Assembly: GCF_003550015.1 (NCBI RefSeq)
Contig: NZ_QXEV01000009.1
Span: 1-64,000, forward strand
Reading direction: 5' to 3'
Origin: Anaeroplasma bactoclasticum
Lineage (GTDB): Bacteria > Bacillota_I > Bacilli_A > Acholeplasmatales > Anaeroplasmataceae
DNA length: 64,000 nt
The translations under genes were made by a program, and so were the position numbers. Below, piece by piece: positions 10,679 to 54,021 of the stretch; within the stretch, counting starts at the first letter, position 1, and each line of letters begins with the position of its first letter. Under the pieces are notes generated by a model. That model ran no database searches. It saw nothing but the letters and a program-made list of their open reading frames with translations, and was not told the origin of the DNA.

Positions 10679-10702
10679 GAAAACCTTTTTGGAGGTATGA
10701 AA

Positions 10703-11575
10703 ATGAAAATCGATGAGATTTTAAAAAAGAAAAGAACCCTATCCTTTGAGGTGTTTCCACCAAAGAAGGGCTCATTAGGTATTGAAAAAATTTTTAAAAC
10801 AATAGATGAATTAAAAGCTCTTAACCCAGATTATATTTCTGTAACCTATGGGGCAGGAGGATCTAATCGTAATTCAAATGTTGAAATTGCATCCTATATT
10901 AAAAACCAAGCTAAAATTGAAGCATTAGCTCATTTAACTGGTGGACCATCTAGCTATAGTGATATCGATGAAATTGTTAAAAAATTACATTCTGAGGGCA
11001 TTGAAAATATATTAGCCTTAAGAGGCGATAAGCCAATAGATTTTAATGATGATTATTGTAAAACATTTAAGCATGCTACAGATTTAATGGAATATTTAAA
11101 GGATGAGGATTTCACACTTGCTGGAGCATGCTACCCAGAAGGACATAATGAATGTGAATCCTTATATGAGGATTTAGCTCATATGAAGGAAAAGGAACAA
11201 GCAGGAGCTAAATTCTTTGTTACACAGGTTTTTTATGATAATGAGTATTATTATCGTTTAGTATCTGAAGCTAGAAAGGCAGGCATTAAATCTCCAATTA
11301 TTCCAGGTATTATGCCACTTGTATCTCACAAGAGTATTCCTTCTATAAAAAATATGTGTGGTGCATCTATTCCCCTAGATTTTAGAAATATGCTAGAGGT
11401 TTATAAGGATGATCCTGAGTTACTTGAGGAATTTGGAATTAATTATGCTGTTTATCAAATAGAAGATTTAATTGCGAAGGGAGCTCCCGGTATTCATTTA
11501 TATATTATGAATAGAGCATCTATTGCAAAAAAGATTTATGAAAGGCTAGAAAATGTCTTCAGTAAGCTATTCTGA
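10703..11575 (+). CDS. metF: 5,10-methylenetetrahydrofolate reductase MetF, 290 aa
   Basis: MetF reduces methylene-THF to methyl-THF, the methyl donor for MetH two genes on. The FAD-dependent TIM barrel is recognisable from FEVFPPK near the N-terminus, SVTYGAGGS, LALRGD, AKFFVTQVFYD and IPGIMP. ATG 10703 is preferred over ATG 10697 because GGAGG (10691-10695) is only 1 nt from the first but 7 nt from the second. The end overlaps the next gene by 23 nt, indicating translational coupling. It ends in TGA, evidence that UGA is a stop here. Confidence 0.96.
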   Translation: MKIDEILKKKRTLSFEVFPPKKGSLGIEKIFKTIDELKALNPDYISVTYGAGGSNRNSNVEIASYIKNQAKIEALAHLTGGPSSYSDIDEIVKKLHSEGIENILALRGDKPIDFNDDYCKTFKHATDLMEYLKDEDFTLAGACYPEGHNECESLYEDLAHMKEKEQAGAKFFVTQVFYDNEYYYRLVSEARKAGIKSPIIPGIMPLVSHKSIPSIKNMCGASIPLDFRNMLEVYKDDPELLEEFGINYAVYQIEDLIAKGAPGIHLYIMNRASIAKKIYERLENVFSKLF

Positions 11576-12176
11576 TATATCTCATATTGTATATTCCTAT
11601 TTGGGATATAGGAATTTATCAAGAGATGAAAAAATAGATAAATTAATTATCGAATGCTTAGAGGAAATTGAACAAATTTCCTCATTTAAATATATTTATC
11701 AGGAATATGATTATATCCTAGACTTTTTAAAGAAAAAGCAATATTTGGAATATTTAGGGGATTCTACATCCTATTTGATTTGTGCAACAACACTAGGTAG
11801 TCAAATCGATAAGAGAAGTAAATATTACCAAATGAAGGATATGGTTAAAATGTGTGTATTTGATGCGACAGCATCCGCATATTTAGAATATATGGCTGAT
11901 ATGTACGAAAAAAGCATAAGAAACGATTTAAGCTACCGTTTCTGTCCGGGCTACCAGAATACGGATGTAGCTGATATTCGTCCAATACATGAGCTTTTAA
12001 AGGCGGATAAGGTTATTGGTATAACCCTTTTAGATAGTAATTTAATGGTTCCCCAAAAATCCATGATTGGTATTGTTGGAATTAATTGTCACGCTAAAAA
12101 AAGCTGTAAGAATTGTTTTTTACTTGAGAATTGTGATTATAGAAAGGAAGGGATAAGATGCTATACGATAAAATAA
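11553..12176 (+). CDS. Stand-alone methionine synthase reactivation-domain protein, 207 aa
   Basis: The protein resembles the C-terminal SAM-binding activation domain of MetH, the part that re-methylates oxidised cob(II)alamin. The match is RFCPGYQNTD (about residues 129-138) followed by a region with IGITLLDSNLMVPQKSMIG. In canonical MetH the corresponding motif is R-x-S/C-P-G-Y and the 'M-P-x-K-S' strand. It ends in a cysteine cluster (CHAKKSCKNC...C...C), also seen in clostridial 'MetH activation' proteins and possibly binding a metal or cluster. It overlaps metF by 23 nt and metH by 19 nt. The metH product lacks this domain, so the two most likely form one enzyme in two chains. Confidence 0.85.
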   Translation: MSSVSYSDISHIVYSYLGYRNLSRDEKIDKLIIECLEEIEQISSFKYIYQEYDYILDFLKKKQYLEYLGDSTSYLICATTLGSQIDKRSKYYQMKDMVKMCVFDATASAYLEYMADMYEKSIRNDLSYRFCPGYQNTDVADIRPIHELLKADKVIGITLLDSNLMVPQKSMIGIVGINCHAKKSCKNCFLLENCDYRKEGIRCYTIK

Positions 12177-14500
12177 CCATTTTTGATGGTGGATTTGGTT
12201 CTGAATTAGATAGACTAGGACTTCCGACTTCTTGTCCTGAGGATTTAAATATCACAAATCCTTTAGATATTCAAAAGATTCACAATTCATATGCAGAATA
12301 TGCTGATTATATAACTACAAATACATTTGGATTAAACAAGATTAAATATCATGGTGCATATACCATTGAAGAGGTTTTAAAGGCTGCGATTAAAAATGCA
12401 AGAGTGACAAAGAAAAAGGTCTTCTTTGATATTGGACCTACAGGACAAATGCTAAAGCCTATGGGAACATTATCCTTTGATGAAGCATATGAAGCTTTTA
12501 AAGAAATTGCTTTATTATCTAAAGACTTAGTAGATGGATATATTATAGAAACATTTTCAGATTTATATGAAATAAAAGCTTGTATTTTAGCTTTAAAGGA
12601 AAATACAAGCTTACCAATATTTGCAACAATGACCTTCGATAAAACTGGAAGAACCCTAACAGGCTCTACCCCAGAAATCGTAGCGAATACTTTAACAAAT
12701 CTTGATGTTGATGCCTTAGGTGTAAATTGCTCCTTAGGCCCTGATGAGCTTTTAGATATTGTAAAAAGAATGGCTGAATATACAAATAAGCCTATTATTA
12801 TTCAACCAAATAGAGGATTACCAAAGATTAAAAATGGTAAAACCATTTATGATATGGATAAGGACCATTTTGTTAAATCTGTTGGTAATTACTTACCTCT
12901 TGGTGTAGTTATTTTAGGTGGATGCTGTGGAACTACTCCAGAATTTATAAAAGGTCTTGCAGATAATTATAAAGGCAAAGATGTAGTAAAAAGAGAATAT
13001 ATAAGAAGAACCTTAATCAATTCTCCAACCAAATTGGTTGAAATTGATTATGTTAGAGTTTGTGGTGAAAGATTAAATCCTACAGGAAAGAAAAAGCTTA
13101 AGGAAGCTTTAAAGAATGAGGATTACGATTATTTAGTATCCTTAGCCTTACAACAAGAGGAGAATTCGGATTTACTTGATTTAAACTGTGGCTTACCTGG
13201 AATTGATGAAGTTAGTGTTATGCAAAATGCAGTAACTAAAATTCAAGAATTTGTAGATTTACCACTTCAAATTGATTCTTCTAATTATTTAGCAATTGAA
13301 GCTGGCTGTAGATATTATAATGGTATTCCTTTAGTTAATAGTGTAAATGCTACTAAAGAAATTATGGATAAGGTATTCCCTATTGTAAAAAAATATGGTG
13401 CTGTCATTTTAGGTCTTGCGATGGATGAGGCCGGTGTACCTAAAACAGCAGAGGAAAGATATAATAAGGCAAAGCTTATTCTAGATACTGCCATATCTTA
13501 TGGAATTCCAAAGGAAAGAGTTATGATTGATACTTTGGTATTAACTGCATCTGCAGAACAAGAGCTTGTAAAAGAAACCCTAAAGGCACTTACTATGGTA
13601 AGAAGCTTAGGTGTAAAAACAGCACTTGGTGTATCGAATGTATCCTTTGGGTTACCCTTTAGACCATTATTAAATCGTACATTTTTAACAATGGCTATGT
13701 ATGCAGGATTAAATATGCCGATTATTAATCCATCGGATTTAGAAATGATTCATGCGATATATGCATATCGTGCATTACTTGGAATTGATCAAAATAGTAG
13801 TGATTTTATTAACCATTTTGCAGAAATGGAAGAGGTTAAATCTACTGTAGTAGCTAAAGGTACTGTAGAAAAGCAAGATTCTAATACCCTTGATTTATAT
13901 CAAGCAGTAAAAAAGGGATTAAAAAATATGGTTCCTAATCTTTTAAATAAAGAATTAGAAGAAAAAGAACCTATGGTAATTATTAATGATGTTTTAATTA
14001 AAGCTTTAAATGATGTAGGAGATGCATACGATAAGGGTAAAATGTATTTGCCACAGCTTATTGCCTCTGCAGAAGCTGCCAAAGAAGCATTCTCCATTAT
14101 ATCTTTAAAATTCCCATCCTCAGGTGAGGTAAAGGGAACTGTAGTTATGTGTACTGTAAAAGGAGATGTTCATGATATAGGTAAAAACATCTGCAAGGTT
14201 GTAATGGAATCTTATGGCTATAAAGTCATAGATTTAGGTAAGGATACTCCAATTGAGGCAGTAGTAGATGCTTATTATAAATATAATCCAGATGTCATTG
14301 GACTTTCTGCTTTAATGACAACAACAGTTATATCTATGGAGGATACAATTAAAGCTTTAAGAAAAATTGATTGTAAAGCGAAAATTATTGTTGGTGGTGC
14401 CGTTTTGACAAAAGACATCGCCGATAGGATTGGTGCGGATTATTATTCATCCGATGCATTAAGCTTGGTGAATTTACTTACTGAAATTATAAAGCACTAA
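12158..14500 (+). CDS. metH: Cobalamin-dependent methionine synthase MetH without reactivation domain, 780 aa
   Basis: MetH transfers a methyl group from methyl-THF through cobalamin to homocysteine. Domains in order are: homocysteine-binding barrel with zinc ligands Cys191, Cys256 and Cys257 (GVNCSLGP, GGCCGTTP); pterin-binding barrel starting near VCGERLNPTGKKK; cobalamin cap (about 600-650, KALNDVGDAYDKG and LPQLIASAEAA); and a cobalamin-binding Rossmann domain with DVHDIGKN, where His672 is the lower axial ligand, and GLSALMTTT. The protein stops there; the reactivation domain is encoded by the preceding gene. E. coli MetH is about 1227 aa, so 780 fits a split enzyme. A cobalamin riboswitch and apparent B12-uptake genes follow directly. 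Confidence 0.96.
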   Translation: MLYDKITIFDGGFGSELDRLGLPTSCPEDLNITNPLDIQKIHNSYAEYADYITTNTFGLNKIKYHGAYTIEEVLKAAIKNARVTKKKVFFDIGPTGQMLKPMGTLSFDEAYEAFKEIALLSKDLVDGYIIETFSDLYEIKACILALKENTSLPIFATMTFDKTGRTLTGSTPEIVANTLTNLDVDALGVNCSLGPDELLDIVKRMAEYTNKPIIIQPNRGLPKIKNGKTIYDMDKDHFVKSVGNYLPLGVVILGGCCGTTPEFIKGLADNYKGKDVVKREYIRRTLINSPTKLVEIDYVRVCGERLNPTGKKKLKEALKNEDYDYLVSLALQQEENSDLLDLNCGLPGIDEVSVMQNAVTKIQEFVDLPLQIDSSNYLAIEAGCRYYNGIPLVNSVNATKEIMDKVFPIVKKYGAVILGLAMDEAGVPKTAEERYNKAKLILDTAISYGIPKERVMIDTLVLTASAEQELVKETLKALTMVRSLGVKTALGVSNVSFGLPFRPLLNRTFLTMAMYAGLNMPIINPSDLEMIHAIYAYRALLGIDQNSSDFINHFAEMEEVKSTVVAKGTVEKQDSNTLDLYQAVKKGLKNMVPNLLNKELEEKEPMVIINDVLIKALNDVGDAYDKGKMYLPQLIASAEAAKEAFSIISLKFPSSGEVKGTVVMCTVKGDVHDIGKNICKVVMESYGYKVIDLGKDTPIEAVVDAYYKYNPDVIGLSALMTTTVISMEDTIKALRKIDCKAKIIVGGAVLTKDIADRIGADYYSSDALSLVNLLTEIIKH

Positions 14501-14514
14501 ATTATTCAGTTATT

Positions 14515-14668
14515 TATCTAGGCGTTTGGCGACAAACTTAATAAGGAATCGGGTGGAAGTCCTGAGCTGTACCAGCAACTGTAACATGGACAAAATCCAA
14601 TATGTCATTGGGAAACTGAGAAGACGGATTTTTGGTTGAAGTGAAGTCAGGAGACTTACCTAGTAAAT
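14515..14668 (+). ncRNA. Cobalamin (AdoCbl-type) riboswitch
   Basis: The conserved B12-box core is recognisable: AATAAGGAATCGGGTGGAAG at 14541-14560, then TCCTGAGCTGTACCAGCAACTGTAA split over 14560-14584. The 3' element GAAGTCAGGAGACTTACCT is at 14643-14661. This order (GGAA..GGTG..AA.CC..CTGTACC.GCAACTGTAA..AGTCAGGAGAC) is the cobalamin family consensus. It precedes a lipoprotein with a transcobalamin-like domain and an S-component gene, as expected for B12 uptake. No terminator is obvious between it and the start, so control may be at translation through sequestration of the SD at 14742-14747; that part is inference. Boundaries are approximate. Confidence 0.93.
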
Positions 14669-14749
14669 ATAAAATAAAAAAAAGGAATGTGGGATTATTT
14701 AAATGCTGCTGGGATACGGCAAGAAAATAATTACTACAAACAAGGAGAA

Positions 14750-16000
14750 ATGAAGAAGAAGTTATTTGCGGTTCCTCTAGCTTTGGGTATGGCTTTAGGA
14801 ATGGCAGGCTGTGGTAATGAAGCAGAAACTACAACCACTACTGAAAAAACAACTGTCGCTCCATACTATACTACAGAATGGCCTAAAACATATACAATTA
14901 AGGTATATGATATTGATGGTGAGCTTATTGGAGATAAGACAGTTGATTTAAAGGAATGCCCAACAGTTAATGACGCATTAGATAAATATTTTGATGTAAA
15001 AAAGAATGGAACTTTTATTACATCAATTAATAATTCTGTTGTAGATTCTAACTGGTATTTAAATATTTTAGAAAATGGTAAATCTTCACCAGTTGGCGTA
15101 GATGAATTAGAGGCTAACGATGGAGATGTATTTGAATTCAAGAGTGAATGCAGGAATACAAAAGCTTTGGATGAATATGATGTTTTAGTTGATAAAGCAA
15201 TTTATCATTATGCAAAGAATGGCTTAAAAACATCTTTAGCGGCTTCTAATAGCTTTTTAGATAGTTCATATTGGCAGGCTATGGCTGTTTATTTAATGGA
15301 AAATAACGGCTATGATAGTAATCTATTTAATAATACACTATTTACAGATGCATATAAGGCATCTTTATCTGGTGTTGATTTTAAAGATATGCCAAATCTA
15401 ACAGAATGGTCAACAGATGCAAATTATGCAAAATGGTATTATGCTGCAAGATTATTTGATGTAACTAATGAAGATTTTACATCAAACTTTTCTGCATATT
15501 TAGAGGGTTTAACAAAATATAGGGATGAATATTCCTTACCATTTACTTTATCTATTGCTAAAGAAATGAATTTGGACTCTAAAGTTTCAACTGAGTTATT
15601 AAATACAACATATCGTGCATCCGTAGAATATGGTACAGATGGATATACTTGGGAATTATGTGGTTTAGCATTATATAATACACTTTCTGATAGTGATTTT
15701 GAACCATTAACATTAGCAAATGTAGAAGCAGCTGTAAAACAAGGCTTAGCAGCAAAGGATACATCCTTAAGCTTATTCTTATTACCTTTAGCTGCAGCTA
15801 AGAAGAATGCTAGAGAATTTATGATTGAAGAGAATACAGATATCATCAAGTATCTATTTGACAATCATTTTGATAGTTATAACTATCAGTTTGATATGGA
15901 AAAGGCAGAGTATGATTATTCTTCCAATCAGATTTATGCTTCATTAATGGCATATAAGGTTCAAAGAGATAAAAACAAGGCAGTAGTCCTTTTTGCTTAA
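14750..16000 (+). CDS. Lipoprotein with DUF4430/transcobalamin-like domain plus helical repeat domain, 416 aa (putative B12-binding surface protein)
   Basis: The signal peptide ends in lipobox GMAGC, with lipidated Cys21, followed by a Thr-rich linker. Residues 47-132 fit a DUF4430 domain, which shares the fold of the beta domain of transcobalamin and intrinsic factor: a beta strand TYTIKVYDIDG, TVNDALDKYF, NWYLNILENG, then GVDELEANDGDVFEF. Residues 140-416 look all-helical with repeats resembling an alpha6/alpha6 barrel (NYAKWYYAARLF, YTWELCGLALY, and the end IYASLMAYKVQRDK...VLF). In human intrinsic factor the helical barrel comes first and the beta domain second; here the order is reversed. 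ATG 14750 gives the signal peptide; AAGGAG is only 2 nt upstream, an unusually short gap. Riboswitch control supports cobalamin capture. Confidence 0.8.
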   Translation: MKKKLFAVPLALGMALGMAGCGNEAETTTTTEKTTVAPYYTTEWPKTYTIKVYDIDGELIGDKTVDLKECPTVNDALDKYFDVKKNGTFITSINNSVVDSNWYLNILENGKSSPVGVDELEANDGDVFEFKSECRNTKALDEYDVLVDKAIYHYAKNGLKTSLAASNSFLDSSYWQAMAVYLMENNGYDSNLFNNTLFTDAYKASLSGVDFKDMPNLTEWSTDANYAKWYYAARLFDVTNEDFTSNFSAYLEGLTKYRDEYSLPFTLSIAKEMNLDSKVSTELLNTTYRASVEYGTDGYTWELCGLALYNTLSDSDFEPLTLANVEAAVKQGLAAKDTSLSLFLLPLAAAKKNAREFMIEENTDIIKYLFDNHFDSYNYQFDMEKAEYDYSSNQIYASLMAYKVQRDKNKAVVLFA

Positions 16001-17150
16001 AAAGGTAGGGAGGATACTTCTTGGTATCCTCCTTATTTCATTAATGGTATTCTCTTGCGTCTATGTTATTGTTAAAAATAAAAATACTACCTCGTCTAAG
16101 GCAGGTACAATTACAGTAATTGTAAATAATATAAATGATGAAGTAGTAGAAAAAAGACGTATTGAATATAAAGAGGATGATACCTTATTTGAAGTATTAA
16201 ATAATTCATACACATTAGTGTATAGCCAAACGACCTATGGTCATTTCTTACTGGGAATATCTAATGATACCTTTAAAATAGAAACGAATGGTAAAAGTTC
16301 ATGGATATGGCTTGAGGTTGCTTATTTAAAGGATACTCTAAGCTATTCTGATACCATTGATTTTAATGATTATGAAAAACAAAATGTAACTACAGGGATC
16401 GATGGAATTTCTTTAAAGGATAATATGATTATTGCATTAAACGAAAGAGATAATCAACATAATACATCAATGTTTAATGATCAAGTAGTATTCTATAATA
16501 CATCTATTTTAGATACTGTATTTCATATTATTGTTTATGTGGTTTCAGGACTATTTGTTTTAGGAATAATTATATTCTTAATTATCAATAGAAAAGGCAA
16601 AAATCCTATAACTATACCAGAATTATGTATATTAGCATTCATGACGGTATTACTATTTGTTCAAGAGGAGCTATTTTCATTTATACCAAATTTCCAATTT
16701 ACATTCTTATTACTTGCAGTATATGTAGTTGTCTTTGGATATAAAAAGACAAGCTTAATTATATTAGCTCATGTTTTATTAGATAATATGTTTATGGGAA
16801 GCCTAACTCCTATAGTTATGATACCTATGTGGATGGGCTATATGATATATACTGGAGTAATTTGGTTATTTAAGGATCAGAAGCTATGGATTTTAGTTTT
16901 AGGTGGAGCATTATCTGCTTATTTATACTGTATGCTATTCTTAGTTACTAATGCGATTTTCTTAGATATTAACCTATATGTTTATTGGATTAGTGATATT
17001 CCATTTGAGGTAATGCTAGTATCTTGTACTTCATTTACGTTAATATATTTGTATAAACCTTTATCTAAAAAATTGGGTGAACTTTGGCGACATGAGAATC
17101 CTTTAGATGTAAGTGATACTATAGATAATCAAGATAACGGAGAAATCTAA
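15993..17150 (+). CDS. Membrane protein with extracellular DUF4430-like domain fused to an ECF-type S component, 385 aa (putative B12 transporter)
   Basis: Residues 8-26 are a membrane anchor. Residues 38-150 look like a second transcobalamin/DUF4430-type domain (GTITVIVNN, DDTLFEVLNN, SSWIWLEVAYL, GIDGISLKDNMIIALNERD). Residues 175-198 form a membrane helix, and 205-358 contain five to six further helices resembling an ECF-transporter S component, the subunit that binds a vitamin for the shared EcfA/A'/T module. The TTG start at 15993 overlaps the upstream gene by 8 nt. A GGGAGG (16008-16013) follows this start but leads to no in-frame usual start codon. The ECF energising module is not in the window. 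I infer cobalamin import from the riboswitch and domain content; a B12-precursor substrate is possible. Confidence 0.75.
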   Translation: MLKKVGRILLGILLISLMVFSCVYVIVKNKNTTSSKAGTITVIVNNINDEVVEKRRIEYKEDDTLFEVLNNSYTLVYSQTTYGHFLLGISNDTFKIETNGKSSWIWLEVAYLKDTLSYSDTIDFNDYEKQNVTTGIDGISLKDNMIIALNERDNQHNTSMFNDQVVFYNTSILDTVFHIIVYVVSGLFVLGIIIFLIINRKGKNPITIPELCILAFMTVLLFVQEELFSFIPNFQFTFLLLAVYVVVFGYKKTSLIILAHVLLDNMFMGSLTPIVMIPMWMGYMIYTGVIWLFKDQKLWILVLGGALSAYLYCMLFLVTNAIFLDINLYVYWISDIPFEVMLVSCTSFTLIYLYKPLSKKLGELWRHENPLDVSDTIDNQDNGEI

Positions 17151-17168
17151 TGATTTCTCTGTTTTTTC
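17139..17168 (+). terminator. Rho-independent terminator of the B12 module
   Basis: GAGAAATC / GATTTCTC (17140-17147 with 17152-17159) overlaps the stop codon and is followed by TTTTTT. Confidence 0.85.
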
Positions 17169-20361: not shown

Positions 20362-23300
20362 TTACTTTGCTGGTCTATCCCAGTTGTAAGTACCATCTAC
20401 CCAAGATTCGTACTCAGGCTCTTCGCCATAGTTTGTAACTGTATTCTTGAAATATTCAACATCTAATCCAGCATTTGAATCCCATGTAGCAACCTTAGGA
20501 CCATTTGTGGCATCAATTTGAATATTTAACTTAGAAAGTAATAGGTAGGACTGGAAGTTTGAACCAGTGTACTTACTAATTGCACTATCAAATAATGTAG
20601 AGCATAAAGATGAAATATTAGATTCCAATGAAGAAGTAGCACTGTTTGCCTTCTGTACATAGTAAATGAAGAACTGGTTAAAGGAAATTTGATCAGTATT
20701 TTCATTCCATGCATCAGTATGTACTACAATAGATTCATCCTCATCAGTATCAGAATCATCAGTGATTAATGTAACAGAAATATCATTTTCCCAGCTTGAC
20801 TCATAATCAGATGGCTTCTTGTAGTCTGTAGAATCTGGACCACTATAGCTATTAACGATTAATAGGTGGTAGCCAAATACTGTTTTACATAAAGACTTGC
20901 TTGTAATTAAAGAAGCACTAGCTGCATCCTCAAGTACAGAACCTGTTTCAGTATCTTTATCATAAACATAGAAATTACCATCTTCGTCAATTTCTGTCTT
21001 GTTTGTGCTTAAAGCCTTATATACAGCTTTTACATATTCCTGGAATGGCTCTACAAAGTTATTTACAGAATCCTGAGTGATATCACCAGAAGAAGCTAAT
21101 TGTTCAACTGTTAATAAGAAACCAAATTGCTTATAATCATCCCAAGACTTTGTTGGGTCAGTCTTTAGCTTTGCACCCTCTTCATAAGCTGTCTTTAGAT
21201 AAGTTAAGATTGTATAGTAATCATTATCACCATATAAACCACTTGTAGCCTCTAAATATAATGCTTGAGCTAAAGATGCAACAGATGCTTCAAATTCATT
21301 CTTAGTAGTATCATCAAGATCCTTTAAGAACTTATCTGGATCATCTGGTGTACCATCACCATTTGCATCAATATTAATTAAGATATGATCTAGGTTAATA
21401 TTGAATAATTTAGAATAATTTGCATTACCAGATGTTAATAGGTTATATAAAACACCCTTAGTTTCATATTCGGAATTAATATCGTAAATGTTCTTTCCGG
21501 CTTCATCAGTCTTTGTCTGATTTAATACAGCCCAATCCTCAAATACAGTTTCAGCCATATATTTAGTTAAGCAAGAATTTGCATTAAAGTAATATTTTAC
21601 TACATCATCTCTATTTTCGTATCCATATGCGATTAATAAATAGTTTTCTAATCCCATAGAGGATGGATACTGAGAATTACCATTGTTGTTGAAATTAGAA
21701 ATTGCATCATCAACAGCAGTTTCATTAGAAGAAATTGTATCTTCATCAAGATATTTATCTAAGAAAGAATATGCATATTCTAATTCAAAGTAATTTGTAA
21801 GGATTTCAGTTGCATAAGTTGTAGCTGCATCCTTATAGAAATCATCTACTGTATAGTTCTTATTATCATAAGAGAAGATTACATCATTTTTGAAATCAGC
21901 CTTATCGATTAACTCATATACATCAGAATAAGAATTGTAATATTTATACTCAAATACTGGGTCATAAATCTTTAAATCATTATCCTTGTTATCATCATTT
22001 AAATTCTTATAAATGATAGATTTGTAATTTGTAGAAGCATAACTTGTTGCCTGACTTTCAATTGCATCCCATTTTGCTAGGATGTCATATTTAGCCTTTT
22101 GCTCATCAGTTAAATCATCATATTCAGTTTCTTCATCAGTTAAAGAAACATCATACTTAGTATCCATATGGTAAACCATATAATACTTATTAGATAGATT
22201 ACGAGGACTCTTGAAGAATTCACCTTTTTCTAATGTGTCTGTAACTGCAGTTTTTACAGAAGAATTTAGGTCATCTAATTCATTTTCTGATTTATTTACA
22301 GTATATGTGAATCTTTCATCTAATAAATCTGCAGCAGGGTCATAAGCATAGGTTGTGTTATATAATGCAAAATAATAGTTCTGAACATCTGCATCAGTAA
22401 TATTTTCTTTATCTAAGCTATAGCCTAAAGCAGCTGTTACAGCAGCAACGTTAGCTAATGCCTCACGTCTTGAGTTGAACTGAATAACTACAGCCTTATA
22501 TTCACCATATGTTTTATAATTTGACTCATAGCTTGATTTTAAGGAATCCTCTTTAAATAGATAATAAGAAGAATTCTTTGTCTTATCATCATTTTCAGTA
22601 TCTGCATCATATTCATAGATATATTCTTCATCAGCAATCTGATATAATGCATTCTTAGTTGAAAGCTTTTCAGCTTGAGTAATGATATAGCCTTCTACAA
22701 GAGCTCTATAGTTTTCAACAATATTCTTGAAGTTTGTGAATACAATGACATCTGTTTCATCTGTAGGTAATGTATATGCTAAGTCAGCCTTAGTAATATA
22801 GATACCCTTTCTTGATTGTGCCTCAATAAACTTTGTGTAATATGTTTCAATGTCATCAGCTTCCATTTCTTCAATTTTTTCTGCAGAGGATGCAGAGAAT
22901 AAAGAAGAAGATAGGGAAGATGAAATAGAATTGATAATATTACGACGAATATAATTGTAGTTGGAAAGATTACCAGTGTAATCTAATGTAGTCTCAGATA
23001 AGTTATATAAGCTTTCACCATTCTTAGTTAATGTAAGAAGTTCCTTTGTATCATTTGCTACATCAGCTAAATTCTCATGTAACAATAAATCAACAATTGC
23101 ATTATATTCCTTATTATAAATAGCCTTTTTAATGTTGTTTTGAACAACAGAGTTAGCAGAATATCTAAGTCTAGAATAGAACTGACCCTGTGTCATTTTC
23201 ATTGCTTCATTTGTAATATCATTTGTAGCAGTTGCGATTACAGTATCAGAATTGTACTTGTTATTCTCGCCATATGGAATACTTGAATTTCTTGAATCTC

Positions 23301-23376
23301 CACCACAGGATGCAAGTGTTAAAACCATTAATCCTGTTGAACCTGCAAGAAGCAGGCTTTTGAATGCTTTTTTCAT
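20362..23376 (-). CDS. Very large SurA/PrsA-like lipoprotein, 1004 aa (putative extracellular foldase, paralogue of the next gene)
   Basis: The signal peptide ends in lipobox LASC with Cys24. The N-terminal part reads like a SurA/PrsA chaperone domain (TNDITNEAMKMTQGQFYSRL followed by a helical region). LDHILINID near residue 680 and FGYHLLIVNSYSG near residue 850 resemble the first and last strands of a parvulin-type PPIase domain, but with a long insertion between them. HILI is followed by DANGDGTPDD, an EF-hand-like calcium loop. PrsA proteins are about 300 aa, so this is more than three times longer. It starts after AGGAGG, one base beyond the stop of its upstream paralogue. A role in folding exported proteins is inference; PPIase activity is unproven. 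Confidence 0.7.
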   Translation of the reverse strand: MKKAFKSLLLAGSTGLMVLTLASCGGDSRNSSIPYGENNKYNSDTVIATATNDITNEAMKMTQGQFYSRLRYSANSVVQNNIKKAIYNKEYNAIVDLLLHENLADVANDTKELLTLTKNGESLYNLSETTLDYTGNLSNYNYIRRNIINSISSSLSSSLFSASSAEKIEEMEADDIETYYTKFIEAQSRKGIYITKADLAYTLPTDETDVIVFTNFKNIVENYRALVEGYIITQAEKLSTKNALYQIADEEYIYEYDADTENDDKTKNSSYYLFKEDSLKSSYESNYKTYGEYKAVVIQFNSRREALANVAAVTAALGYSLDKENITDADVQNYYFALYNTTYAYDPAADLLDERFTYTVNKSENELDDLNSSVKTAVTDTLEKGEFFKSPRNLSNKYYMVYHMDTKYDVSLTDEETEYDDLTDEQKAKYDILAKWDAIESQATSYASTNYKSIIYKNLNDDNKDNDLKIYDPVFEYKYYNSYSDVYELIDKADFKNDVIFSYDNKNYTVDDFYKDAATTYATEILTNYFELEYAYSFLDKYLDEDTISSNETAVDDAISNFNNNGNSQYPSSMGLENYLLIAYGYENRDDVVKYYFNANSCLTKYMAETVFEDWAVLNQTKTDEAGKNIYDINSEYETKGVLYNLLTSGNANYSKLFNINLDHILINIDANGDGTPDDPDKFLKDLDDTTKNEFEASVASLAQALYLEATSGLYGDNDYYTILTYLKTAYEEGAKLKTDPTKSWDDYKQFGFLLTVEQLASSGDITQDSVNNFVEPFQEYVKAVYKALSTNKTEIDEDGNFYVYDKDTETGSVLEDAASASLITSKSLCKTVFGYHLLIVNSYSGPDSTDYKKPSDYESSWENDISVTLITDDSDTDEDESIVVHTDAWNENTDQISFNQFFIYYVQKANSATSSLESNISSLCSTLFDSAISKYTGSNFQSYLLLSKLNIQIDATNGPKVATWDSNAGLDVEYFKNTVTNYGEEPEYESWVDGTYNWDRPAK

Positions 23377-23377
23377 C

Positions 23378-26300
23378 TTAAGCCTCCTCCTTTAATAAAG
23401 CCTTAATACTATCCCACCAAGTAACTACGTTGCCGTGTTCGTCTTCGTAATCATATAGGTTAGATGTACCAGTTGTATCATTGTATAGGTAGCTATAGCC
23501 ATCTGCAGATCTTTCTGCGATTGCAACAAGCTTATCAAATACATCATTATATCCATCCTTAGTGAATGTAATATTATTATTTGTTATAGACTGGATATAA
23601 TTGATTAAGATAATTCTTTGAGTTTCGTTTCCAGCAAATCTAGTAACTACTGGGTTTACATATCTAGAGTAAGCAGTAGATAAACCTGTTGGAGCTAAAG
23701 TAGAAGAACCATTGATTGCATAATCTAATAAATAGAACTTAATCTGGTTATTATTTAATCTTTCATCATCGTTATAGATGTTTTCAATCTTAACAGGGTT
23801 CTCATTATACATTAATACGATGTTTTCTAAGATACCCTCATCATTATCTGTCTTGGTCCACTTTGCAGAAGCGGAAGTTGTACCAGATGTAACCATAATT
23901 AGGTTGAAGCCATCCTCAGTAGCAACAATTGTATCATCATCCTTAGATGTGATATTTGCGCTAGCTACATCAATTGGCTCAATGTAGCAAGTAGGATAAG
24001 TATTATTTAAGAAATACTCATAAGTCTTTCCATTATCACTATAGCCTCTTGCATAGTCGAATAGACGCTGCTTTAAGCTAAAGTCGATATCTGTTGTAGA
24101 ATTAGTTGCAGAGAAATCAGCAGTCTTAACATTTAATCCTAAATGTCTATAAACAGCCCAAGTGTTTTCAGCAGAAATTGGGTTATCCTCATATACAACC
24201 TTAGCACTTGCGTTAATTTCAGAAACTAAAGCAGTAGCTGCATCTGTATGAGACTGTGTAGAAGCACTAATCTTATTGTAGATTTCACAAATTAGTTGCT
24301 TAGCAACTTCACCAAATGTCTTACCAGCAAATACGCTTGTTGGATCATAATCAGATACTAGCATATCCTGCCAATCAGAAACATCATCAGCCTTGCCATC
24401 ATCATCAGCATCTAAATATACATATAAGCGAGTACCACCTAAGGAGAAGTAATTATCCTCAGCGATATCAACATACTTTTTAATGAATGAAACTAGCTTA
24501 TCAGAAGAATAGTCAGTTAATAGCTTGCCAGAAGCTACATTTACTCTATAGTAGTTATCAATGATTTCATCAACGCTTGCAGTATGGAAATATAACATTA
24601 AGAAGTTATACTTACCAATAGATGCTGGATAACCATTAGTAGAATAATAGTTGTTAGAGAAGCTTAATAGCATATTCTCAATATAACGATTATAGATTGC
24701 TCTATCCTTGTTTGTATCCTCATAAGCCTTTGTAGTCTTAATGATTTGCTTAGCAATTAAATCAATTGCAGTTGTTGTACCACTCTTAGCATTTAAGTAA
24801 TCAAATACACCAAATGGAGTAGTTGTACCTGGAACTAAAATGGAATTTTCATCATTAGGGTCTGCAACAATATTTAAATTCCATGTTACATCATCATAAG
24901 AGATTGTAGCTAAAATGTTATCATTGCCTGCACCAGATAATGCTTTAGAATAATTTTCATTTTCTGCAGCATACTTAATTTCTGTTGCCTCGTTATAAAT
25001 CTTTACACTTACATTATCTAATTCAGCACTTAAATAATTTGTAATTGCAGTAGAAGTAATATCTTGCTTCTTTAATAATTCTAAGATATCTGTTGCAAGT
25101 GCAGGATAAGTTTCAGTATCCTGTAATAATGCAGTAATATCAGAAGAACTTCTTTCCTCATCGTTATACCACTGTGTGAAATGAACTAAGTTAGCATCAG
25201 TAACCTCTTCCTTATCTACATAGTTTGTATATTCATCAAACTTATAAACTAAAGAAGTACCTAAGGATGTAGACTGTCCAGAGCTTGAATAACAAGTAGA
25301 GTTAGACTTAAGCTTTAATGTTTCATACATATAATTCTTAAATGTATCTCCATAATTATCCTTTAATTCCTTTGCAGTGAAATATGTTTCATTTTCGTTA
25401 TCTGCCTTTAATGTTGCTTTTGCTTCTTCTAGCATATCCTCAACAGTTTTACCAGGTGCTGGTGCAGCATAAGCTTCAAGGATTTCATCTGTTAATCTTC
25501 TTAGTTTGTTTAACTGAGTATAAGTTGTGCCAGTATAATTAGATGAAAGCTTTTCTCTATAACCACCATAAACATAATTATAAATCTGAATAAAGATTTC
25601 TAAGATCGCCTGAGAAGATACAACAGTAGCCATCTGGTTACCATCCTCATCACGACCATTGTTTAGGTTACTTGTAGCGAAATCATCATAATATTTGATG
25701 TAATCCTCATAAGTCATATATCCATCTGCATTTAGGGTATATGTCTTTGTATCCTTAGAATCATAAATATAATATAGATTCTTTCCGTTGAACTTTAAAC
25801 CAAATGCTCTTAGTGTATTCTGTAATTCAGAAGAATCAGCAAAGTTAATGATAACTGCACTCATATCATAATTATTTGTGTATTCATCCTTGAACTTAGA
25901 TACATAATCTGAAACAGAATAATAACCCCATTGATCATCATCGTCATCTGTGTCATCCTCTAAGGCATCAGCGATGTCTTGTTCCAAACCAGCATAAGCT
26001 AAAAGCTCTTTAGCGTATAGTGGGTAATAAATTTGGCTTAAGCCCATTGCAAGCTTTAAATAGTTTGCAGTGTTTTCTTCATAATTTTTGTGGTCTGCTT
26101 TTTTAATTAATGTACTAATTTCTTCTCCATCAATGGATTCAATTAAATACTCAGAATAGATTTCATCAACATATTTTGCTTCTAATGTGTCAATTTCAGT
26201 TTCTTCTAAAGAATCAAAATTGTCCCAATAGTTATCTGTTGAATAAGTGAAATTGTAGATATCCTGTACAACATAGTCTACAATTCTTTCTTTAAATGTT

Positions 26301-26662
26301 TCTTTAATCTTGTTGTAAGCATCATCGCTATAAACATTTTCCTCATTGAAGCCTAGATCTTCCTTATCCTTATCTGTTAAGGAAGAAGCATCCTTTGTAA
26401 GAACAATGTCAATACGATTGATATACTTGTTTAATACTACATTTGTAATCTGGTTATCTAATACATCATGTGTGTTCCACTTAAGCTCGTTCCAAATGTC
26501 ACCATAAGTAACAGAATATTCACCAGCTTCAGCGTAAACCTTGTCTTTTTCTAATAAACCAGTATTATCAGATGCAGCTGAACAAGATGCTAAAGATATT
26601 GCGAATGCGCCAGCAAGGGAAGCAGTAACCGCTCTGCGCAATGTTTTCTTTGTCATTGTCAT
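23378..26662 (-). CDS. Very large SurA/PrsA-like lipoprotein, 1094 aa (paralogue of the following gene)
   Basis: The lipobox LASC places the lipidated cysteine at residue 27. The N-terminus (VYAEAGEYSVTYGDIWNEL) resembles SurA/PrsA chaperone domains. An acidic run (EDDTDDDDDQWG) lies near residue 235. The C-terminal half shares an ordered set of motifs with the downstream 1004-aa protein: a 'NGYPASIGKYNFLMLYF' region, YVYLDADDDGKADDVSDWQD (calcium-loop-like), NTWAVYRHLGL, and DGFNLIMVTSG. I infer old paralogues. The HILI-type parvulin strand is degenerate here, so any PPIase activity is less likely than in its partner. AAAGGAG lies upstream of the first ATG. The minus-strand promoter at 26702-26730 drives both. 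Confidence 0.7.
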   Translation of the reverse strand: MTMTKKTLRRAVTASLAGAFAISLASCSAASDNTGLLEKDKVYAEAGEYSVTYGDIWNELKWNTHDVLDNQITNVVLNKYINRIDIVLTKDASSLTDKDKEDLGFNEENVYSDDAYNKIKETFKERIVDYVVQDIYNFTYSTDNYWDNFDSLEETEIDTLEAKYVDEIYSEYLIESIDGEEISTLIKKADHKNYEENTANYLKLAMGLSQIYYPLYAKELLAYAGLEQDIADALEDDTDDDDDQWGYYSVSDYVSKFKDEYTNNYDMSAVIINFADSSELQNTLRAFGLKFNGKNLYYIYDSKDTKTYTLNADGYMTYEDYIKYYDDFATSNLNNGRDEDGNQMATVVSSQAILEIFIQIYNYVYGGYREKLSSNYTGTTYTQLNKLRRLTDEILEAYAAPAPGKTVEDMLEEAKATLKADNENETYFTAKELKDNYGDTFKNYMYETLKLKSNSTCYSSSGQSTSLGTSLVYKFDEYTNYVDKEEVTDANLVHFTQWYNDEERSSSDITALLQDTETYPALATDILELLKKQDITSTAITNYLSAELDNVSVKIYNEATEIKYAAENENYSKALSGAGNDNILATISYDDVTWNLNIVADPNDENSILVPGTTTPFGVFDYLNAKSGTTTAIDLIAKQIIKTTKAYEDTNKDRAIYNRYIENMLLSFSNNYYSTNGYPASIGKYNFLMLYFHTASVDEIIDNYYRVNVASGKLLTDYSSDKLVSFIKKYVDIAEDNYFSLGGTRLYVYLDADDDGKADDVSDWQDMLVSDYDPTSVFAGKTFGEVAKQLICEIYNKISASTQSHTDAATALVSEINASAKVVYEDNPISAENTWAVYRHLGLNVKTADFSATNSTTDIDFSLKQRLFDYARGYSDNGKTYEYFLNNTYPTCYIEPIDVASANITSKDDDTIVATEDGFNLIMVTSGTTSASAKWTKTDNDEGILENIVLMYNENPVKIENIYNDDERLNNNQIKFYLLDYAINGSSTLAPTGLSTAYSRYVNPVVTRFAGNETQRIILINYIQSITNNNITFTKDGYNDVFDKLVAIAERSADGYSYLYNDTTGTSNLYDYEDEHGNVVTWWDSIKALLKEEA

Positions 26663-51121: not shown

Positions 51122-51538
51122 ATGGAAAAGAATTATAATACAAAACCAAAAGAGTATATATTAGAATTCCTAAAGAATCATAAGAATACAAGCTTTACTG
51201 TTCAAGACATTTATGATGAAATTATTGAATCTGGATATAGTATTAATCTTGCGACTGTATACAGAAATGTTGTTAAAATGACAGAAGCAGGTATGCTATT
51301 AAAGCATCAATCTGGCAATAGAAATTATGCAACATATCAGTATGTGGAATCTAAAAAATGTCTTACACATTTTCATTTTGAATGTAAAAAATGCGGTAGA
51401 GTTGTTCCTTTAGGAAATAATGAAACAAATGATTTTGTAGCTATGATTCAAAAGAAATTAGGTTTTACCATTGATCCCCAAAATACGTACCTAACAGGTA
51501 CATGTGCAAAATGTGGTGAGAGGTTTATATGTTTGTAA
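51122..51538 (+). CDS. zur: Fur-family metalloregulator, probably Zur, 138 aa
   Basis: The winged-helix part is FTVQDIYDEIIESGYSINLATVYRNV (in two pieces, residues 25-50). The metal part has a structural zinc site with Cys88, Cys91, Cys128 and Cys131 (CKKC, CAKC), and a regulatory region CLTHFHFEC with Cys80, His83 and His85. This pattern fits Zur-type sensors, and the next three genes encode a zinc-type ABC importer. ATG 51122 is chosen over TTG 51104: GAGGGAT lies 6 nt upstream, and the earlier start sits inside the operator. It overlaps znuA by 10 nt. PerR or Fur identity is less likely from context. Confidence 0.85.
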   Translation: MEKNYNTKPKEYILEFLKNHKNTSFTVQDIYDEIIESGYSINLATVYRNVVKMTEAGMLLKHQSGNRNYATYQYVESKKCLTHFHFECKKCGRVVPLGNNETNDFVAMIQKKLGFTIDPQNTYLTGTCAKCGERFICL

Positions 51539-52527
51539 TTAAAAAAATTCATTATGTATTATTTCTAGTTTTATTTTTAGGATTATTTTCTTTAACATCC
51601 TGTTCATCTAAGGATAGTGATATTATTTCTACAGTATATGCTGGATATGATTTATCTAATGCGGTTTTAGGTAAGGATTCAGAGTTATCTACAGAAATGC
51701 TTGTAAAGCCTGGTGTAGATATTCATAGCTTTGAGCCATCTGGTGTAACAATCCGCTCTATTTTAAATTCTAAATTGTTTATTTATGTAGGTGGAGAGGA
51801 TGATTCAGAGTGGGTAGAAAAAGAAATTTTACCTAGTTTAAAGGGAACTACTAAAGTAATTAATATGTTTGATTGTTTAAGAGATAAGGGAGTTAAGTTA
51901 CTTGGTGAAGAAGCCCCAGAATCTGCAGAGGAAGAAGCTTTAGAGGAAGAGGCGGAAGATGAAGAATATGATTCTCATGTATGGACTTCCCCTAAGAATG
52001 CAATTATAATACTAGAGGCTATTCGTGATGCCATAATTGAAATTGATAGTGTAAATAAGGATAAATATATTGAAAATACAAAGAATTATGTGGCTTCATT
52101 AAATACTATTGATTCTGAAATTAGAAATGTAGTTTCAACTGCAAGAACAAATTATATAGTAATGGGAGATAGATTCCCTTTATTATACTTCGTTAGGGAA
52201 TATGGTATTGAATATGATGCAGCATTTAATGGATGCTCTAGCAATAAGGATGCATCGAATAAGACAATTGTTTCTTTGTCTAATAAGGTAATGGAGCATG
52301 AATTATCTTATATATTTGTTATTGAAATGTCATCTTCTACAGTTGCAAATGCAATTAAAGAAACTATAGATTCTTATATTACAAATAATACATATAGCGG
52401 TAAAAGCCCTGATATTTTAACATTCTATTCTATGCAAAATATTGCAAAGGATGATTTTCAAAAGGGCTATACATATATAGATTTTATGAATAAAAACATT
52501 GAAGCATTAAAGCTTGCTTTAAATTAA
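51529..52527 (+). CDS. znuA: Zinc-type ABC transporter substrate-binding lipoprotein (ZnuA-like), 332 aa
   Basis: A lipobox LTSC (Cys25) anchors this cluster A-I metal-binding protein. Expected ligands His66 (DIHSFEPS) and His150 (DSHVWTSP) are present. Instead of the His-rich loop there is an acidic run (EEAPESAEEEALEEEAEDEE, 127-146) before His150. The third ligand position, His in typical ZnuA (HDAF), is Asp214 in GDRFPLLYFVREYG, followed by AFNGCSSNKDAS. I recall this D-R-F-P...GCS variant from Lachnospiraceae homologues, so it is a subfamily trait, not damage. Zur context favours zinc over manganese. Confidence 0.88.
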   Translation: MFVIKKIHYVLFLVLFLGLFSLTSCSSKDSDIISTVYAGYDLSNAVLGKDSELSTEMLVKPGVDIHSFEPSGVTIRSILNSKLFIYVGGEDDSEWVEKEILPSLKGTTKVINMFDCLRDKGVKLLGEEAPESAEEEALEEEAEDEEYDSHVWTSPKNAIIILEAIRDAIIEIDSVNKDKYIENTKNYVASLNTIDSEIRNVVSTARTNYIVMGDRFPLLYFVREYGIEYDAAFNGCSSNKDASNKTIVSLSNKVMEHELSYIFVIEMSSSTVANAIKETIDSYITNNTYSGKSPDILTFYSMQNIAKDDFQKGYTYIDFMNKNIEALKLALN

Positions 52528-52546
52528 TTAGAAAAGGGGTGTAACC

Positions 52547-53209
52547 ATGCTGGTTGATGTATCCAATTTATCACTTGGTTATGAAAAACAAACAGTTATA
52601 CATGATATATCCTTCCAAGTAGAAGAAAATGATTTTATTATTGTACTTGGTTCAAATGGTGTTGGTAAATCCACACTAATTAAGGGTATGCTTGGATTAA
52701 TTAAACCACTGGGTGGTTCAATTCAATATAATACAGAAAAAATTGGTTACATGCCTCAAGAAACTAGGGTAGATCCTAATTTCCCTGCTTCAGTAATGGA
52801 AGTTATTTTATCTGGTTTTGTAAATAAAATGGGACTACGTCCATTCCATAATAAAAAAGATAAAGAAAAAGCTTATGAAATTATGGAAATATTAAAAATT
52901 ACCCATTTAAAGAAAAAGTGCTTTTCAGAATTATCTGGTGGACAACGTCAAAAGGTTTTACTTGCAAGAAGCTTGTGTGCAACTGATAAATTATTAATAT
53001 TAGATGAACCTAGTAATAACCTAGATCAAAAATCTAAAAGTGAATTCTATACCATTTTAAAGCATTTAAATGAAGGACATCATATCTCTATTATTATGAT
53101 CACTCATGATATAGATAATGATTCCTTAATTGGAAATAAGGTATTAGCTTTAAGAACAGATGGTTATTACTTTGGTAAAACAGATGATTATATGGAGGCA
53201 GACTTATGA
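52547..53209 (+). CDS. znuC: Zinc ABC transporter ATP-binding protein (ZnuC-like), 220 aa
   Basis: Walker A LGSNGVGKST (about 34-43), YMPQETRVDPNFPASVMEVI (typical of metal-importer ATPases), signature ELSGGQRQKVLLARSL and Walker B LLILDEPSNNLD. At 220 residues it is somewhat shorter than the usual ZnuC (about 250). AAAGGGGTG precedes the ATG. It overlaps the permease gene by 4 nt. Confidence 0.93.
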   Translation: MLVDVSNLSLGYEKQTVIHDISFQVEENDFIIVLGSNGVGKSTLIKGMLGLIKPLGGSIQYNTEKIGYMPQETRVDPNFPASVMEVILSGFVNKMGLRPFHNKKDKEKAYEIMEILKITHLKKKCFSELSGGQRQKVLLARSLCATDKLLILDEPSNNLDQKSKSEFYTILKHLNEGHHISIIMITHDIDNDSLIGNKVLALRTDGYYFGKTDDYMEADL

Positions 53210-54021
53210 TATTAAATATCTTTGAAATGTTTAGCCTACCATTTTTCCAAAAAGCATTGATTGTAGGTATATCAATATCTATATGTGCAGCCTTATTAGG
53301 TGTATCTATGGTATTAAAAAAGAATTCTATGATTGGTGATGGCTTAAGCCATGTGGGCTATGGAGCAGCCGCAATAGCATCTGCCCTTAATTTTGCCCCA
53401 CTAGCGTTTGCGATGCCTATTGTAGTTATTGCATCTATATTTATTTTGAAGCTAACAGAAAAAAGCAAGATTCATGGAGATGCAGCAATCGCAATAATTG
53501 CCTCATCAAGCTTAGCCATAGGTTATACTGTAATTCATACTGCTGGAACGAATATAGATATTGAAAGCTATCTTTATGGTAGTATTAATTTTATTACAAC
53601 AGAAGAGCTTATTATAAGTGTTTCCTTATGCTTAATAGTTATTTTAGCATTCATTCTTTTATATAATAAGATATTTGCATTAACGTTTGATGAAACATTC
53701 TTTAAATCTACAGGATCTAAAAGCAGTATTTATTCTGTAATTATTGCAATATTATGTTCCTTAACTGTAGTTGTTGGAATGAAGATTTTAGGGGCGTTAT
53801 TAATTTCAAGCTTAATAATATTCCCAACAATTTCAGCAAGACAGGTATTTAAAACATATAAGAGTGTAATTATAGCAAGTGTAATTATTTCTGTTTTATG
53901 CTGCATGGTTGGAGTCATTATGAATTTCTATATTGATTTCCCTGCAGGTAGTACTATAGTAATTGTTAATTTAATTGTTTTATTAATCTTTATAGCGATT
54001 GGAAAGATTTTAAAAAGATAG
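53206..54021 (+). CDS. znuB: Zinc ABC transporter permease (ZnuB-like), 271 aa
   Basis: About eight membrane helices of the ABC-3 type. The diagnostic MIGDGLSHVGYGAAAIA motif is at about residues 44-60. Later family motifs are ALTFDETFFKSTG and KILGALLISSLIIFPTISARQ. It overlaps znuC by 4 nt and closes the zur-znuA-znuC-znuB operon before a terminator. Confidence 0.95.
   Translation: MILNIFEMFSLPFFQKALIVGISISICAALLGVSMVLKKNSMIGDGLSHVGYGAAAIASALNFAPLAFAMPIVVIASIFILKLTEKSKIHGDAAIAIIASSSLAIGYTVIHTAGTNIDIESYLYGSINFITTEELIISVSLCLIVILAFILLYNKIFALTFDETFFKSTGSKSSIYSVIIAILCSLTVVVGMKILGALLISSLIIFPTISARQVFKTYKSVIIASVIISVLCCMVGVIMNFYIDFPAGSTIVIVNLIVLLIFIAIGKILKR

Follow-up and report, generated by a model that had tools for sequence, protein, structure and literature searches.

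To our knowledge, ECF transporters are described as working without a separate capture protein, the S-component itself binding the substrate. For vitamin B12, the prediction of CbrT as such an S-component is said to go back to Rodionov and co-workers in 2009. CbrT is now an experimentally proven cobalamin transporter S-component (Santos et al., 2018, PMC5997447; PDB 6FNP), whose gene in L. delbrueckii lies in the order nrdJ-cbrS-cbrT-pduO. Together with the ECF module it transports B12 partner-free, and it carries cobinamide as well (PMC5997447).

Proteins resembling the animal B12 carriers have also been described in bacteria. Burroughs et al. (2007, PMC1796856) reported a transcobalamin-like clade of SLBB (beta-grasp) domains in secreted Gram-positive proteins, combined with an alpha/alpha toroid in either order. 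In the passages dealing with these proteins, the operons are said to include CbiO/CbiQ, and both B12 scavenging and a transfer to animals are predicted, so that carrier kinship and a B12-scavenging role in bacteria are already on record there. In human transcobalamin (TC), the isolated beta domain binds cobalamin (Cbl), and the two halves assemble only when Cbl is present (PMC5599065). In Bacteroides, the surface lipoproteins BtuG and BtuH take B12 ahead of an importer.

The locus described here lies in a window of 64,000 nucleotides from Anaeroplasma bactoclasticum (the window being the whole stretch of DNA analysed). The closest named relatives of this rumen bacterium are MAGs from gut and rumen that carry the labels Anaeroplasma or Acholeplasmatales. 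Judged from sequence and predicted structure, two overlapping genes within the window very probably serve to capture B12 at the cell surface and bring it into the cell. Our best explanation, in which we have considerable confidence, is that the locus encodes a cobamide uptake system repressed by B12, in which a lipoprotein clamp and a CbrT-type S-component fused to a beta domain (beta-S) serve import via EcfA-EcfA-EcfT for MetH. The features of the locus are as follows.

10697-11575, + strand: metF, methylenetetrahydrofolate reductase (PF02219, 268.8 bits; TIGR00676 above cut-off)
11553-12176, + strand: separate MetH activation-domain protein, 207 aa (PF02965, 27.4 bits, just above cut-off)
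12158-14500, + strand: metH without activation domain, 780 aa (S-methyl_trans, Pterin_bind, B12-binding_2 and B12-binding domains)
14502-14677, + strand: cobalamin riboswitch aptamer (RF00174, full-length)
14750-16000, + strand: lipoprotein, 416 aa, with signal peptide and lipobox, beta domain and alpha/alpha toroid (predicted model)
14888-15151, + strand: transcobalamin-type beta-grasp domain (DUF4430) of the lipoprotein, residues 47-134 (PF14478; Foldseek)
15173-15973, + strand: alpha/alpha-toroid domain of the lipoprotein, residues 142-408 (model helices; Foldseek toroids; profile link to a PF00432 protein)
15993-17150, + strand: fusion protein, 385 aa, TTG start, with transmembrane (TM) anchor, beta domain, TM segment and ECF S-component (predicted model)
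16104-16448, + strand: second transcobalamin-type beta domain, residues 38-152 of the fusion (Foldseek)
16614-17096, + strand: CbrT-like S-component domain, residues about 208-368 of the fusion (profile; Foldseek)
17136-17163, + strand: intrinsic terminator closing the unit (12-pair stem and T run; fold z-score -6.7)

The riboswitch starts two bases after the metH stop codon. The original prediction placed a cobalamin riboswitch at 14515-14668, and RF00174 was indeed found there with slightly wider limits, scoring 88.7 bits against a cut-off of 31.5 (E 1.5e-20, model positions 1-189). It is the only RF00174 match in the whole 2.2-Mb, 99%-complete assembly. The region 3' of the aptamer has a modestly stable fold (z -2.0), and a promoter scan gave fewer matches than shuffled sequences. 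Because no terminator was seen between the aptamer and the lipoprotein ATG (14750), translational control by the riboswitch is our guess, and only a guess.

The lipoprotein ATG lies about 70 bases 3' of the riboswitch and is preceded by AACAAGGAGAA, in which AGGAG is the ribosome-binding site. The cysteine of its GMAGC lipobox is invariant in 18 relatives. Two adjoining, very large lipoproteins (1004 and 1094 aa) with LASC lipoboxes are encoded on the - strand of the window at 20362-26662. The model of the 416-aa protein, predicted from a 21-sequence alignment, has a pLDDT of 86 and a pTM of 0.84, with beta strands at residues 47-134 and helices at 142-408; a beta domain at 47-132 and a helical repeat domain at 140-416 had been proposed, with near-identical limits. 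Pfam detects DUF4430 (PF14478) above cut-off, with 28.4 bits over residues 72-131, and in the PDB Foldseek ranks 3u7z (DUF4430) and structures of the human transcobalamin beta domain (5no0, 5np4) first for the beta domain, all with prob 1.0.

The second half of the lipoprotein is less clear-cut in its relationships. A fold other than an alpha/alpha barrel had been named as evidence against the reading; residues 142-408 were modelled as an alpha/alpha toroid, which leaves the reading standing. Foldseek matched this part to YteR, drimenyl diphosphate synthase, intrinsic factor (3kq4, prob 0.96), the complement thioester domain and RabGGTase, matches that are low-scoring and to generic toroids, all with E-values above 0.001, the hydrolase YteR being the best. 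Searched by sequence, the toroid had no match in the PDB and one weak match to PF00432, the prenyltransferase alpha-alpha toroid family. A profile of the alpha domain finds the operon counterpart in locus L192 (E 6.8e-5), and since that protein carries PF00432 above cut-off, the toroid assignment gains sequence-based support. Sequence homology between the toroid and the alpha domain of intrinsic factor (IF) and TC was not detected by hhalign (probability 2.8%). The proposal that the lipoprotein holds both halves of intrinsic factor thus stands for the homology of the beta domain and for the toroid fold, with homology of the toroid to the IF alpha domain in particular only a possibility. The proposed reversal was borne out, with beta (47-134) preceding toroid (142-408), and because of this order a sequential aligner is unable to match both halves to the animal proteins together.

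The fusion gene (TTG 15993) overlaps the lipoprotein gene by 8 nt. Its product has no significant Pfam match, and its model (pLDDT 86, pTM 0.64) consists of a TM anchor, a beta domain, a second TM segment and an S-component fold, in agreement with the expected overlapping gene combining a second DUF4430-like domain with an S-like membrane part. For its beta domain, Foldseek ranked the human TC beta domain first, in holo and apo forms (5np4, 5no0; prob 1.0). The kinship of DUF4430 with the TC and IF beta domains, already invoked by the original prediction, is also seen at the profile level, where hhalign aligned the beta-domain family of these operons with the IF/TC beta domains (probability 94.9, E 4e-8). 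The membrane domain matched TmRibU, 4huq_S and ThiT (prob 0.97-1.0), and also BioY. Comparison with known S-components, which had been suggested as a check, places it nearest to CbrT: a profile of the S part run against PDB sequences had 6FNP chain A as its best match (E 1.3e-5), with no other S-component listed. S proteins of more distant Bacilli match CbrT with E 4e-12 and 2e-10.

The relationship to CbrT extends to gene order. On annotated plasmid DNA of Lactobacillus intestinalis, nrdJ, a DUF4430 gene, a CbrT-like S gene (product 59% identical to 6FNP) and cobalamin adenosyltransferase are consecutive. As this parallels the published nrdJ-cbrS-cbrT-pduO order, CbrS is very probably a DUF4430 protein with a transcobalamin-type beta domain. 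One Enterococcus faecalis plasmid carries CbrT with no DUF4430 gene listed alongside, and the pairing is therefore not universal. The present locus and ECF-CbrT of L. delbrueckii thus have in common a sequence-related S-component, a shared EcfA-EcfA-EcfT module and, in Lactobacillus, the DUF4430 gene beside CbrT. They differ in that DUF4430 is here fused to the S-component, that a toroid lipoprotein and a riboswitch are added 5', and that import is here predicted. Since CbrT and the ECF module transport B12 without a partner (Santos et al., 2018), the beta and alpha parts may, by analogy, be accessory to the S-component.

Human transcobalamin, intrinsic factor and haptocorrin share with the locus the beta fold, its profile homology and an alpha/alpha toroid as the second half. 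In A. bactoclasticum, by contrast, beta precedes alpha, the protein has a lipid anchor, its toroid has no sequence link to theirs, and the target is an ECF S-component in place of receptor endocytosis. With the SLBB-toroid scavengers of Burroughs et al. (2007) the lipoprotein shares export and the combination of DUF4430 with an alpha/alpha toroid; the passages on those proteins make no tie to a CbrT S-component or a riboswitch and describe no SLBB-S fusion (PMC1796856). The operons reported there contain CbiQ/CbiO, whereas the unit in the window is without EcfT and EcfA genes; one relative (L194) has EcfT-EcfAA in its unit. BtuG and BtuH are likewise surface lipoproteins, but their folds are unrelated, BtuG being a beta-propeller (PMC6977713), and their route is of the outer-membrane TonB type.

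The neighbourhood and the rest of the genome suggest a need for B12. The MetH had been called split, correctly, since its activation domain (PF02965) is on its own gene upstream of the 780-aa protein, in which the TIGR02082 match covers positions 39-847 of 1182. No MetE was found in the genome, which makes MetH the sole methionine synthase detected and upholds the proposed link between the import module and this B12-dependent enzyme. The genome has an ECF module, with one EcfT adjoining two EcfA genes and truA, on another contig than the window. BtuCDF-type import was rejected, as no FecCD/BtuC match in the genome was over cut-off and the best was sub-threshold (20.4 against 26.5 bits), and the CbrT-like S-component is the sole B12 importer found. 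The sub-threshold FecCD gene, at 53206, adjoins an ABC ATPase and a metal-binding-like lipoprotein, and this group (51529-54021 of the window) resembles a zinc/manganese (ZnuABC-type) importer.

The distribution of the module was followed at two scales. Of 60 relatives, 39 have the S domain and 20 the lipoprotein. Beta and S are two adjacent genes in most of these relatives and are fused in eight genomes, A. bactoclasticum included, which ties the two functionally. Where a relative lacks the riboswitch, the module comes directly 3' of metH, its lipoprotein gene running up to or over the metH stop, so that the module is tied to B12 either by the riboswitch or by the metH operon. Across Bacilli, an S profile scan of 395 genomes gave matches in 119, and 87 clear S matches were analysed. 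The original prediction looked to a non-B12 riboswitch in other genomes for its refutation; what was found is RF00174 (within 3.5 kb upstream of the S gene, same strand) for at least 65 of the 87, against roughly 0.1% per gene by chance, and the reading is not refuted. In two further loci (L136, L138) RF00174 was found by direct scan, additional to the 65.

The gene order riboswitch, alpha lipoprotein where present, beta and S is strongly conserved across Bacilli. A beta ORF is directly 5' of S or fused to it in 54 of 54 loci (one weakly), and in 30 of 33 other loci, which come partly from the same genomes as the 54. Two loci have the order riboswitch-toroid-beta-S (L191, L192), and L194, with riboswitch-toroid-beta-EcfT-EcfAA-S, is a complete dedicated ECF operon. 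Many genomes carry beta-S without an alpha protein, making the lipoprotein dispensable as a class.

Some variants of the lipoprotein were also observed. In MAGs (Ca. Izimaplasma, Bacilli; L089:6552-7538, L093:70-1014) a C-terminal domain of another, non-toroid kind comes after the beta domain of the module's lipoprotein. Lipoproteins of 634-636 aa with two beta domains per chain lie 5' of beta and S with a B12 riboswitch (L134:1607-3514, L145:1490-3391). The lipoprotein gene is duplicated in tandem at L056:5549-8109, with both copies between the riboswitch and beta-S. A second beta-toroid lipoprotein at L198:1563-2939 is not near an S gene and adjoins a trans-sulfuration-type PLP enzyme, with the riboswitch absent there.

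Capture and import of B12, the function originally proposed, is well supported by the riboswitch, the TC-type beta domains, the CbrT-like S-component, the ECF module, the lack of a clear BtuC and of MetE, and the conserved order. Binding of the ligand, its transport and the direction in which it is handed over are inferred from these. When B12 is scarce, the riboswitch would permit expression of the lipoprotein and beta-S. The lipoprotein would then display a predicted B12-binding clamp built like intrinsic factor from a beta domain and a toroid, in reversed order, and a second transcobalamin-type beta domain would be carried on an extracellular loop of the CbrT-type S-component. On the outside of the cell, lipoprotein and S-linked beta domain would bind B12 and hand it over to the S-component; together with the shared EcfA-EcfA-EcfT, the latter would import it for MetH.

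In this scheme a relay from the lipoprotein to the S-linked beta domain is presumed, and its main competitor is a single clamp formed in trans, with no relay, in which the toroid of the lipoprotein closes over B12 held on the S-linked beta domain. This competes with the relay step alone and not with B12 import, and the probability given to it overlaps that of the best explanation. The behaviour of the human TC halves, which join in trans only with Cbl (PMC5599065), would fit both arrangements, and toroid-only lipoproteins accompany a separate beta domain beside S in four loci (L064, L084, L086, L138), as a trans clamp would have it. On the other hand, it would make the lipoprotein's own beta domain redundant in the window, where the protein fits a relay better, and we consider a trans clamp possible but rather unlikely. 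Were it true, the ECF transporter would gain a true high-affinity capture partner. An extension of the idea, that of a split intrinsic factor docked on the transporter, closing around one B12 molecule in trans as the halves of intrinsic factor do in cis and loading the S-component directly, with the animal carriers descending from the bacterial toroid-beta part, is a tentative suggestion that we would favour no more strongly.

Alternatively, beta-S alone might import B12, the toroid of the lipoprotein having another surface role such as adhesion, glycan binding or an enzymatic activity related to alpha/alpha-barrel hydrolases. YteR as best structural match, and the missing sequence link to intrinsic factor, agree with this. 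Genomic position argues against it, as 47 of 55 toroid matches are less than 1.5 kb upstream of S and six of the eight others are in units under RF00174, and so does the company of a TC-type beta domain, located before alpha in 78 of the 79 proteins that have both in cis; such a role is therefore improbable. It is very improbable that the imported substrate is a corrinoid precursor (cobinamide) or a lower-ligand base (dimethylbenzimidazole) and not complete cobalamin, for although B12 riboswitches control precursor uptake too and CbrT carries cobinamide, the S-component is closest to CbrT and the units adjoin MetH or NrdJ with adenosyltransferase, which need the complete cobamide.

Among the open-access papers searched we found no report of the beta-S fusion, of a toroid-only lipoprotein paired with a separate beta domain, of class-wide riboswitch statistics for the module, or of CbrS as a transcobalamin-type beta domain. 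The preferred reading, B12 capture and import by lipoprotein and beta-S, offers a likely role for cbrS, the hitherto unexplained neighbour of the gene for the proven transporter CbrT. Here an S-component is encoded together with a predicted capture protein whose shape recalls the animal B12 carriers, and in eight genomes the beta domain and the S-component form one polypeptide. This small system opens the question of how large, scarce vitamins get to ECF S-components, and with it that of the origin of the animal intrinsic-factor family in genes for bacterial uptake.
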